Positions 48,536 through 53,816 of a stretch of DNA of 64,000 nucleotides are shown here, piece by piece. A model generated the notes under the pieces. That model was not told the origin of the DNA, did no database searches, and saw only the letters and a program-made list of their open reading frames with translations. This DNA is from Methylophilaceae bacterium LSUCC0717 (GTDB lineage: Bacteria; Pseudomonadota; Gammaproteobacteria; Burkholderiales; Methylophilaceae), in assembly GCA_024919195.1 (NCBI GenBank), contig CP103436.1, forward strand, positions 372,001 to 436,000, given 5' to 3'. Numbering within the stretch: position 1 is the stretch's first letter; the number at the start of each line of letters is the position of its first letter. The position numbers and the translations under genes were made by a program.

Positions 48536-48611
48536 GCCCTCGTAGCTCAGTGGATAGAGCATCCCCCTCCTAAGGGGAGGGTCGCACGTTCGATTCGTGC
48601 CGAGGGCGCCA
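48536..48611 (+). tRNA. tRNA-Arg(CCU)
   Basis: The 76-nt cloverleaf pairs acceptor GCCCTCG with CGAGGGC. Loop CTCCTAA between TCCCC and GGGGA gives anticodon CCT. CCA is encoded. Its 3' portion is repeated at 50853-50921, marking it as the attachment site of a small island. Confidence 0.97.
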
Positions 48612-48612
48612 C
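48544..48612 (+). repeat. 69-bp direct repeat, copy 1 (att-like, inside tRNA-Arg)
   Basis: From AGCTCAG of the D arm to one base past the CCA, these 69 bases recur without a mismatch at 50853-50921. This is the classic structure left by tRNA-targeting integration. Confidence 0.9.
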
Positions 48613-48684
48613 CTTTTCAAAAATTCAAAATGTATTTCAACACACTTTGAGCACACTCAGCTTAAAAATTAAAACTAATATTAA

Positions 48685-48713
48685 TTGATTTATACCCTAT
48701 AGGGGTATATAGT
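48685..48713 (+). promoter_or_regulatory. csoR promoter with CsoR-type operator in the spacer
   Basis: -35 TTGATT (48685-48690), a spacer of exactly 17 bp and -10 TATAGT (48708-48713). The spacer is filled by the palindrome TATACCCTATAGGGGTATA (48691-48709), which matches the TACCC-n4-GGGTA layout of CsoR-family operators. Repressor bound here would block polymerase. It lies 24 bp before the csoR start. Confidence 0.78.
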
Positions 48714-48736
48714 ATATTAATGTAAAGGAGTAAATT

Positions 48737-49012
48737 ATGAGTGACTGCAAACATCCAAACCATAATGAGCAATTACCAAGAATAAATAAAATTATTGGTC
48801 AACTGAATGGAATAAAAAAAATGATTGAGGAGAATCGTTACTGTCCGGAAATTATCACACAATTAAAAGCGGTCAGTTCCGCATGCCAATCAACTGAAGC
48901 ATTGTTATTAGAAAAACATTTAGCATCTTGCGTCTATGAGGCATTTCATTCAAATGACAAAGAAAGCCAAGAGCAAAAAATTAAAGAGTTAACAAAGCTT
49001 TATAAAAAATAA
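48737..49012 (+). CDS. CsoR/RcnR family metal-sensing repressor
   Basis: A 91-residue all-helical repressor that releases DNA on metal binding. The C36-H61-C65 ligand set (YCPEI, EKHLASC) coincides with the copper-sensing triad of CsoR. The N-terminus MSDCKHPNHN adds possible ligands. AAGGAG lies 6 bases upstream. Autoregulation and control of the downstream operon through the operator at 48691-48709 are predicted. Copper is the likeliest metal, but nickel/cobalt types cannot be excluded. Confidence 0.85.
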   Translation: MSDCKHPNHNEQLPRINKIIGQLNGIKKMIEENRYCPEIITQLKAVSSACQSTEALLLEKHLASCVYEAFHSNDKESQEQKIKELTKLYKK

Positions 49013-49020
49013 TAAATAAA

Positions 49021-49665
49021 ATGATTAAATTTATTTTTATTTGTTTTCTAAGCCTGCCTACGCTTCTTTTTTCAGCCCCAATGGGTTTTAAAGGCTCAGT
49101 CACATCCATGTCAGATATCAGCAAAAGGCATAGTTTTATCGAAACTAATTATGCATACGATGCAAAAAGTGCGATAGGGGTAAAGTTATTCCATATGGAT
49201 AATAACAACCGTATTCGAGATGGTATTGAAATAAATCATATCCACCGTTTATTTAGACAAAATACAAAATACTCACAAATGAATTGGTGGTTGTTTGGCG
49301 GCATAGGTTATCTCGAGGGCTCTAATGAAGCAATTAACGATAAAGAATTAAGTACAGCTTATGTAAGTCCCGGATTGCAATGGGATTATGAAACCAAAAG
49401 AGTTTATGCGTTGGCTAGTCATCAGCTCATTAGAGGTGATTCCACCAATCATGATACAACAAAGTTAAAAGCTGGATTTTCATTTTACGAAACAGGGTAC
49501 AACCAAACTCAACCTTGGTTTATTTTGGAAATGACTAATATCAATGGCATTACTCCTCAATTAGAAATTACCCCAACGATTAGATTAATAAACAAATCAC
49601 TGTATTTGGAAGGCGGCATATCAAATATGGGTAATCCCAAAATACATGTGATGTATACCTTTTAA
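49021..49665 (+). CDS. predicted outer-membrane beta-barrel protein
   Basis: 214 residues with a signal peptide (about 1-18, ending LFSA), alternating aromatic/polar strands and a C-terminal aromatic residue (HVMYTF), all typical of a small outer-membrane barrel. It sits 8 bases after csoR and 15 before the merP-like gene, so an outer-membrane step for the same metal is plausible. No family recognised. Confidence 0.65.
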   Translation: MIKFIFICFLSLPTLLFSAPMGFKGSVTSMSDISKRHSFIETNYAYDAKSAIGVKLFHMDNNNRIRDGIEINHIHRLFRQNTKYSQMNWWLFGGIGYLEGSNEAINDKELSTAYVSPGLQWDYETKRVYALASHQLIRGDSTNHDTTKLKAGFSFYETGYNQTQPWFILEMTNINGITPQLEITPTIRLINKSLYLEGGISNMGNPKIHVMYTF

Positions 49666-49680
49666 CAATTGGAGATTTAA

Positions 49681-49992
49681 ATGAAAAAAATACTTATTTT
49701 ATTTACCTTTTTAACTACCAGTGTTTTTGCTGCAACTCAAAAAATTGAAGTAAACGGGATGGTATGTGCTTTTTGTGCGCAAGGTATTGAAAAAAGCTTA
49801 TCCAAAATTGAAACCACTAAAGATGTCTATGTAAATTTAGATGAGGGTTTTGTTATTCTTGAGAGTACCAATGATGGTGTGAGTGAGGATAAAATAAAAA
49901 ACATCATTGTAGACTCAGGCTATGATGTCACTAAAATTTCATTGGTAAATGAAACGGCTGATTCCATCAGAAAGCAATATGAAAAAGAATAA
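49681..49992 (+). CDS. periplasmic heavy-metal-associated (MerP-like) protein
   Basis: 103 residues: signal peptide (1-17, SVFA) then an HMA domain with the metal pair in GMVCAFCAQGIEKSL (C29, C32). A short charged C-terminus extends past the HMA fold. MerP hands Hg(II) to MerT in mercury operons, but CsoR-type control here points to another soft metal such as copper. It overlaps the next gene by 14 bases. Confidence 0.82.
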   Translation: MKKILILFTFLTTSVFAATQKIEVNGMVCAFCAQGIEKSLSKIETTKDVYVNLDEGFVILESTNDGVSEDKIKNIIVDSGYDVTKISLVNETADSIRKQYEKE

Positions 49993-50377
49993 AGAGCTTA
50001 ATACGTTAAGCAATATTAAAAATTTATCCTTTTTAAGTTTATTTACCAGCACAGGAACGATTCTTTGTTGCGCGTTACCAGCATTATTGGTAACAGTTGG
50101 AGCAGGGGCTGCATTAAGTTCTTTGATATCAACATTCCCACAAATTGTTTGGGTATCAAAATATAAAGAATATATTTTCATAGCTGCTTTTATTTTAATT
50201 ATTCTTGCTGGTTACTTGCAGTGGCAGGCTAGAAAACTACCATGTCCAGCAGATAAATTATTGGCTGCTCAATGTATGAAAGCTAGAAAACTATCATTGG
50301 TAATATATTTTGTATCAGTGGTGATATTAATAATTGGGTTTACTTTTGCATTTGTACTTCCCTACTTGTTAAAGTAA
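49979..50377 (+). CDS. MerT-like membrane metal transporter
   Basis: 132 residues with three or four membrane helices. The first helix carries a vicinal Cys pair (TILCCALPALL, C30-C31) as in MerT, followed by GAGAALSS. A cytosolic-side loop has further cysteines (LPCPAD, AQCMKA). ATG at 49979 is chosen, overlapping the merP-like gene; the frame is open to 49949. Part of its 3' end is duplicated at 50941-50994. The gene end overlaps the convergent DUF3147-like gene. Confidence 0.75.
   Translation: MKKNKELNTLSNIKNLSFLSLFTSTGTILCCALPALLVTVGAGAALSSLISTFPQIVWVSKYKEYIFIAAFILIILAGYLQWQARKLPCPADKLLAAQCMKARKLSLVIYFVSVVILIIGFTFAFVLPYLLK
50302..50355 (+). repeat. 54-bp direct repeat, copy 1 (inside the MerT-like gene)
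   Basis: These 54 bases, coding for the last helix of the MerT-like protein, recur identically at 50941-50994 just after the truncated tRNA-Arg. Confidence 0.9.
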
Positions 50378-50725
50378 GTGAATACCAAACTTTTTTGTAA
50401 TGTTTGCAAAAACAACAAAAGATAAAATGGTTACAACGATTGAAATAATAATCGCAATCCAAAAACCATAATGCTTAACCACATATGGAAAAATTAAAAA
50501 CATCGGCAGAGTAGGGATAACATACCAAAAGGTATACCAAGCGTGATTAGCAATTTTTTCAACACTTTGTTTTTCAAAATATAACCAGAATAAAACTAAA
50601 ACAGTAACTAAAGGAAGGGCTGCAATTAAGCCCCCGAGTTTATCACTTCGCTTAGCAACTTCAGAAATAAGAACCACTAAAAAACTCGTGACAGCATATT
50701 TAAATATTAAGTAAACCATGCGCAA
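50369..50725 (-). CDS. DUF3147-like small membrane protein
   Basis: 118 residues (116 if the ATG at 50719 is used), four hydrophobic helices, with SEVAKRSDKLGGLIAALPLV after the first helix as in DUF3147 proteins. It is convergent with the MerT-like gene and overlaps it by 9 bases. It lies inside the tRNA-Arg repeats, so it is part of the cassette. Function unknown. Confidence 0.65.
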   Translation of the reverse strand: MRMVYLIFKYAVTSFLVVLISEVAKRSDKLGGLIAALPLVTVLVLFWLYFEKQSVEKIANHAWYTFWYVIPTLPMFLIFPYVVKHYGFWIAIIISIVVTILSFVVFANITKKFGIHLL

Positions 50726-50852
50726 ATATTATCACCGATTGATAAAAAATCTGAGCACAATTTGAGCACACTTGACAACAAAACTACCTCCAAATATACT
50801 GAATTTACATTTTATTAACCGCTTAAAGTGTAATAAAATCAATGACTTAATA

Positions 50853-50921
50853 AGCTCAGTGGATAGAGCATCCCCCTCCTAAGGGGAGGGTCGCACGTTC
50901 GATTCGTGCCGAGGGCGCCAC
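50853..50921 (+). repeat. 69-bp direct repeat, copy 2 (truncated tRNA-Arg, attR-like)
   Basis: Identical to 48544-48612 but lacking the first 8 bases of the tRNA (5' acceptor strand), so it cannot fold into a functional tRNA. It marks the right end of the 2.3-kb island. Confidence 0.9.
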
Positions 50922-50940
50922 TCTCCGATTCAATATTGAA

Positions 50941-51016
50941 AATATATTTTGTATCAGTGGTGATATTAATAATTGGGTTTACTTTTGCATTTGTTGTGCC
51001 TGCTTTTATGAGCTAA
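50941..51016 (+). pseudogene. MerT-like gene remnant (3' end only)
   Basis: The first 54 bases equal 50302-50355. The frame continues FAFVVPAFMS and then stops, whereas the intact gene ends FAFVLPYLLK. The tail therefore comes from a different, related MerT-like gene whose 5' part was lost. A TTG-started 26-codon frame remains, unlikely to be functional. Confidence 0.75.
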
Positions 51017-51113
51017 TTCTGAGCCCACAGAAAATAATCTCAATCTTGAAACATTAAACAAATTTTAGTGTCTTTAACCATGTACCTAATTGCAATAGAC
51101 AAGGACTATGGAG

Positions 51114-53277: not shown

Positions 53278-53598
53278 CTACTTATAGTTACAAACCTCTT
53301 TGAGAAGGGTGTATTCATTTGAGTGAGGTTTTGGTTGGAATACCTTTTCTGGGTCAGCATTTTCATCCAAAGATTTACCTTTTAAATCTGGAAACTGATA
53401 GGAGGTTGCCTTTAAGATTTTAAAATTTTCATTAACACAGTCGAACTCATAGTTTTTCGAGCGTGAAAACTGCATATTCTCGTCGTTAAAATAAGATGTG
53501 ATTCTTCTTTTCTTATCGCTTGTAATTTCGAGGGTATTTTCCCAGGCCAGCGACATGGACGGGATAAAAAATAGTAATAAAAGATATCGCATAGACAT
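53278..53598 (-). CDS. exported protein of unknown function
   Basis: 106 residues with a signal peptide (MSMRYLLLLFFIPSMSLA) and a mature region with two Cys (EFDCVNEN, KEVCNYK). Its ATG overlaps the stop of the AlpA-like gene (TAATG), so the three genes 53816-52908 form an operon. Confidence 0.6.
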   Translation of the reverse strand: MSMRYLLLLFFIPSMSLAWENTLEITSDKKRRITSYFNDENMQFSRSKNYEFDCVNENFKILKATSYQFPDLKGKSLDENADPEKVFQPKPHSNEYTLLKEVCNYK

Positions 53599-53816
53599 TA
53601 AATTAAGTCGATGTCGTTGTTATTGATGAAGTCTTGTGTTTGTTGTTGCTGTGCAATCCAATTCTCAATAACGGCATAACTCCAAATGCAGCTTCTTTCA
53701 TTGAGCCGATTTGGAGGTGGAAATTTACCATCTTTTACCCACTCTTTAATGGTGCCTCTATCCACCATCAGGAGCTTTGAAACTTCCTCTACAGAAATGT
53801 AACTTGTTTTTGTCAT
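53598..53816 (-). CDS. AlpA-family helix-turn-helix regulator
   Basis: 72 residues: ISVEEVSKLLMVDRGTIKEWVKDGKFPPPNRL is an excisionase/MerR-like winged helix, followed by SYAVIENWIAQ, as in AlpA-type phage and island regulators. It is unusual as first gene of an operon of exported proteins, with no integrase near. Confidence 0.75.
   Translation of the reverse strand: MTKTSYISVEEVSKLLMVDRGTIKEWVKDGKFPPPNRLNERSCIWSYAVIENWIAQQQQTQDFINNNDIDLI

Follow-up and report, generated by a model that had tools for sequence, protein, structure and literature searches.

This locus raises the question of how a metal-gene package of about 2.3 kb, enclosed by a tRNA-Arg(CCU) gene and a partial copy of that tRNA, can have entered the tiny genome (1.27 Mb) of LSUCC0717, an ocean methylotroph of the OM43 clade (Methylophilaceae), and whether it is a satellite moved by an integrase supplied from elsewhere or a remnant. 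All coordinates given for LSUCC0717 are positions within the window, that is, the whole 64-kb stretch of DNA that was analysed.

Anatomy of the element and its ends

The features of the element are collated in Table 1. The direct repeat (48544-48612 and 50853-50921) comprises 69 bp that are 100% identical, with 0 mismatches and a spacing of 2309 bp; 3 mismatches in 69 bp were counted in the corresponding repeat of the relative KB13 (G015). The second tRNA copy lacks the 5' acceptor strand and was not called by ARAGORN. A repeat of such length cannot be due to chance. The intact tRNA and its perfect 69-bp copy, as described in the earlier sequence-only reading, were thus recovered by the ARAGORN call and by the repeat comparison, and its attL/attR layout gained support from two features that it had missed, namely arm repeats at both ends and a conserved right end (RE).

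Table 1. Features of the tRNA-Arg(CCU) element of LSUCC0717 and of its right-hand neighbour.
Feature	Position	Strand	Evidence or remark
Intact tRNA-Arg(CCU), insertion target	48536..48611	+	ARAGORN; with 48612, left boundary (attL core)
CTCCTAA in the anticodon loop, putative crossover region, left copy	48567..48573	+	G007 split point; array junctions
Left end with arm-type site, TTGAGCACACT exact at 48647-48657	48612..48660	+	sequence comparison
Palindrome TATACCCTATAGGGGTATA, probable CsoR operator	48691..48709	+	sequence; just upstream of csoR
CsoR-type metal-responsive repressor	48737..49012	+	PF02583, 1.6e-24
Secreted/outer-membrane-type protein, 214 aa, no family	49021..49665	+	
Periplasmic HMA/MerP-CopZ-like protein	49681..49992	+	PF00403
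MerT-like membrane protein with Cys pairs, likely start 49979	49949..50377	+	weak MerT/MerTP matches only
DUF3147-like membrane protein	50369..50725	-	NF006751, 179 bits
Conserved RE: arms TGAGCACA (50752) and TTGAGCACACT (50762), then TTAACCGCTTAAAGTGTAATAAAATCAAT	50740..50858	+	alignment A1; model R1, E 5.1e-20
69-bp copy of tRNA-Arg positions 9-77 (attR)	50853..50921	+	repeat comparison
CTCCTAA, inferred crossover, right copy	50876-50882		inside attR
Relic of second metal cassette: left-end start TCTCCGATTCAATA joined to MerT 3' end	50922..51046	+	

The arm repeat TTGAGCACACT lies inside both element ends. The RE, about 100 bp long, is conserved across the genus (alignment of 14 examples from eight genomes). 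Sites of the form TTGAGCACAC occur only four times in the LSUCC0717 genome, two of them at the ends of the element, which, to judge by its arms and core, is bounded by an intact lambda-type attachment site. The first ~46 bp after the tRNA are identical to the left end of another relative, G001, and the arm is common to the left ends of KB13 and of the integrase-bearing G010; the LSUCC0717 left end is of a type other than that of KB13 and G010: it is of the G001 type, and the metal operon adjoins it at the arm. In G007 (LSUCC0401) the tRNA-Arg is split at CTCCTAA by an element whose integrase is diverged, and this split marks an anticodon-loop crossover for that element. From the split, and from cassette-array junctions that keep ...CTCCTAAGGGG, the crossover in LSUCC0717 is predicted to lie at CTCCTAA as well.

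Just outside the right tRNA copy a second repeat of 60 bp was found (50935-50994, 97% identical to 50296-50355, the MerT 3' end), likewise missed by the sequence-only reading, and the chromosomal flank common to relatives resumes at 51047. Decay is ongoing at this site, since the left end combines two left-end types by recombination and the cassette next to it survives only as a relic of deletion. An AlpA-like regulator (53598-53816), outside the element, is conserved in relatives at the same locus. About 70 bases past the tRNA 3' end, the left ends L036, L040, L041, L047, and L053 carry the motif TACGARGGC, a complement of tRNA nucleotides 1-9 (with a differing last base in L040) that tracks the host tRNA variant (GCCCTCGTA or GCCTTCGTA). 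Pairing of this motif with the 5' end of the tRNA is predicted for each of the five.

The five genes named by the sequence-only reading (CsoR, outer-membrane-type, MerP-like, MerT-like, and DUF3147-like) were confirmed by open reading frames and profile matches; the name DUF3147 for the product of 50369-50725 is the one used in that reading. Other csoR homologues of the genus are preceded by palindromes similar to the probable operator. Among NCBIfam models, that of the copper sensor RicR comes nearest to the repressor, with a score below the cut-off, so that copper or mercury handling is only a presumed function. Relatives of the metal operon are widespread in the genus, often away from tRNA-Arg. 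A CsoR-MerT operon in G002 follows a different tRNA, by eye tRNA-Ala (anticodon GGC; L147 around 1547).

Integrases and right ends in the host and the genus

No recombinase was found among the five cargo genes, in agreement with the first reading, and the search was extended to the whole LSUCC0717 genome: just two PF00589 genes are present, both XerC/XerD-like by score, and no PF00239 (resolvase) gene was detected. In the absence of any integrase or resolvase beyond XerC/XerD, the element cannot move alone. XerC/XerD were considered as the mover and set aside, since the tRNA-Arg core is presumably unlike dif.

A matching integrase at tRNA-Arg(CCU) is encoded by two of the 31 congeneric genomes (G018 and G010); the two proteins are 45% identical, and both genes adjoin the tRNA. 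Related integrases are located by tRNA-Phe and near tRNA-His in G001. In G010 (casp15-mb.134, a Caspian relative) the sequence after the tRNA runs through ...GATTTGAGCACACTTTGAGCACACTCAGAGGAGAGTTTTATC-ATG straight into the tyrosine integrase gene. The left end of the KB13 metal cassette aligns with that of G010 up to ...TTTGAGCACACTCAG and, after ...CACTCAG, is followed by the metal operon in place of the integrase. Past its MerT gene, KB13 retains a decayed second arm pair and a short sequence that looks like the beginning of an integrase gene, followed by SDR, hydrolase, and MarR-like genes and then by an RE. On the basis of the two left ends and of these remnants, the integrase-less cassettes were apparently built from integrase-bearing elements by replacement and deletion. 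On another contig of G010, metal and DUF3147 genes with a similar left end reach the same DUF4399 flank gene. The integrase element of LSUCC0401 (11.4 kb, L038 3378-14858), which splits tRNA-Arg(CCU) at the anticodon, carries a complete tRNA-Arg(CCU) of its own (L038 4755-4829).

Strong REs (E of 1.1e-7 or better with model R1) numbered 21, in nine of the 31 congeneric genomes, compared with the two matching tRNA-Arg integrases. Weaker matches (E > 9e-4) in G008, G013, G019, G022, and G018 were judged to be due to chance. No RE was found outside the genus in a 150-genome sample of the order, which held few members of the same family. A viral origin was rejected: a scan of IMG/VR with the RE pattern gave a single match, judged a chance hit, with no tRNA core in 1.4 kb and no PF00589 in the record, and relatives of the integrases were not found in IMG/VR.

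In G018, six REs stand in a row with single-ended cassettes (L048 7842-17279 and L049 4040-7150), and four of the six RE cores (L048 7972, 10766, and 17258; L049 5792) keep ...CTCCTAAGGGG and then pass into non-tRNA sequence. The array junctions coincide, lying directly behind CTAAGGGG, and this genome has one integrase for its six REs. A wider proposal is that the tRNA-Arg integrase and the one-sided RE of ~100 bp form an integron-like system of the genus, in which arrays of integrase-less, RE-closed cassettes would build up next to a single integrase, with insertion occurring RE-to-RE as well as at the tRNA; we regard this as speculative and unlikely.

Signs of movement and rival explanations

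A precise filled/unoccupied pair is provided by KB13 and G001: KB13 carries a 4.17-kb insertion bounded by tRNA copies, where the tRNA of G001 continues directly into the next cassette. The comparison of relatives proposed with the first reading thus yielded a site in G001 free of the metal cassette that KB13 has there. Uniform vertical inheritance, in which every relative would have these genes together with both repeats, was not observed; different cassettes occupy tRNA-Arg(CCU) in six genomes (G000, G001, G005, G007, G015, and G018). G006 was dropped as an empty site, its contig starting exactly at tRNA position 9, the edge of the repeat.

The noncoding RE was compared with the Xer regions of the same genomes. 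The RE of G023 is 92-94% identical to those of G018, G016, and G022, versus 78-79% for the Xer regions, and the REs of G000 and G005 are 78-82% identical to that of G007, versus 68-71%. For closer pairs RE identity does not exceed that of Xer (for example, 84.6% versus 87-90% for G000-G005). G018 and G023, with Xer regions ~78% identical, share an integrase-less cassette that shows 99.4% identity over 1616 bp, reaching as far as the core; the pair rests partly on a MAG contig (G023) that is possibly misbinned, and the RE of the cassette differs more than its body. The cargo of this cassette (L049 4338-5405, L051 139-1206) is, by eye, a MarR-type regulator and globin-like, and chromosomal loci of many congeners match the cassette DNA. 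Related integrase-less packages outnumber integrase-bearing ones and appear to have moved recently between relatives.

The element of LSUCC0717 itself gives another picture of age. Relative to KB13 the metal operon is 95.3% identical, the left flank 93.3%, the right flank 89.8%, and the Xer regions 94.6 and 97.1%. Because the divergence of the operon is about that of the flanks, the cargo itself is not recent and has been in the lineage for long. The earlier suggestion of a recent insertion is hinted at only by the perfect repeat, which may reflect either recency or gene conversion, and is opposed by an operon as diverged as flank and Xer.

Taken together, these sequence comparisons make it probable that the element is a cis/trans-mobilizable, integrase-less element resembling a CIME, which lies in a tRNA-Arg(CCU) island of the additive kind in an OM43-clade host and is movable only with a helper integrase. 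A fixed remnant, in which an old element deprived of its integrase is now passed on vertically, its ends persisting by chance or through recent gene conversion, is rather unlikely, though it would account for the lack of a helper in the LSUCC0717 genome, for cargo and flanks equally diverged from KB13, and for the decayed neighbouring cassette; the c40-c43 cassette of G001 and KB13, with left ends lacking an RE, is such a remnant. Against it stand both arms and the core, which are intact, the perfect repeat, and the similar integrase-less cassettes that vary between close relatives, one of them near-identical across diverged genomes. On satellite versus remnant the evidence is divided: the att ends are intact and related cassettes show signs of transfer, but the helper is absent from the genome.

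It is less probable still that cassettes move mainly through homologous recombination after DNA uptake, with tRNA copies and REs as the sites of exchange and no integrase as the mover. The left end of LSUCC0717 and the neighbouring deletions do look like recombination in arm or tRNA repeats, and the RE is more divergent than the cassette body in G018/G023, but the G018 array junctions all lie at one point and the arms, not needed for this process, have been kept. A chance repeat or a segmental tRNA duplication is scarcely credible, since such duplications of tRNA genes exist but nothing more speaks for one here, the 69-bp repeat is perfect, and the sequence upstream of the copy, being an RE conserved in other genomes and not tRNA flank, already contradicts it.

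Comparison with known systems and proposed mobilization

The CIMEs of Streptococcus have lost integration and transfer genes, keep attL and attR in a tRNA site, and accrete in tandem (PMC5704250). The LSUCC0717 element likewise has no integrase, keeps attL and attR (perfect 69-bp repeat, arms, and RE) in a tRNA site, and stands in tandem with other elements; transfer genes were sought inside the element and integrases genome-wide, and neither were found apart from the two Xer-like genes. An integrase-bearing ancestor is suggested by the homology of the left end to that of G010, clearest in KB13. The differences are that no conjugative ancestor is seen here, that the integrase-less form dominates across the genus, and that the host is a streamlined marine/freshwater bacterium with very small cargo. 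The ssrA islands of Dehalococcoides also stand in tandem, separated by short copies of the RNA-gene 3' end, some being integrase-less and proposed to be cis-mobilizable (PMC3146451); they involve a serine recombinase and ssrA, as opposed to a tyrosine integrase, arm sites, and tRNA-Arg(CCU).

In the same organism group, the available part of one report describes the additive island fGI-2 of Ca. Methylopumilus at tRNA-Lys, where recurring tRNA fragments precede small variable cargo that includes metal genes; it states that small insertions in these taxa are no bona fide integrons, and the sole role it gives to tRNA-Arg(cct) is that of one border to the replacement island fGI-1, with repeats or att structure there not mentioned in that part (PMC10872708). 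fGI-2 resembles the present locus in its tRNA fragments ahead of small cargo and its metal genes, and differs in the tRNA used (tRNA-Lys there, tRNA-Arg(CCU) here). Repeated insertion with variable cargo at one site, as in additive flexible genomic islands, was found at tRNA-Arg(CCU) in six genomes. Integrons and CALINs do not fit, the sites being tRNA-derived with arms and IntI lacking from the genome. Nor do phage satellites (PICI, PICMI), which have their own integrase and satellite genes, only metal and DUF3147-like genes being present inside the element. Tycheposons are tRNA-bordered cargo elements of streamlined marine bacteria that were described with a tyrosine recombinase; the LSUCC0717 element encodes none.

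The ancestor of the mobilizable element would have been an integrase-bearing element with the tyrosine integrase gene just inside the left arm sites. Cargo would have replaced this gene, the P' arm (left), the P arm (in the RE), and the tRNA core staying intact. A matching integrase in the same cell would then attach to the TTGAGCACAC arms, and its recombination of one CTCCTAA core with the other would release a circle of 2309 bp (predicted attP junction: RE, tRNA copy, and CCTTTTCAAAAATTC) that could enter another tRNA-Arg(CCU); without a helper integrase, the element would stay put. Integrase action on the LSUCC0717 ends, circle formation, and the route between cells are putative steps of this scheme.

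The element may serve as a concrete example of the way in which very small genomes can acquire or shed a few useful genes at a time without keeping the recombinase; its att site is defined, and a filled/unoccupied site pair and a candidate helper integrase are at hand. Should the RE arrays move as cassettes, tRNA genes would host something integron-like.
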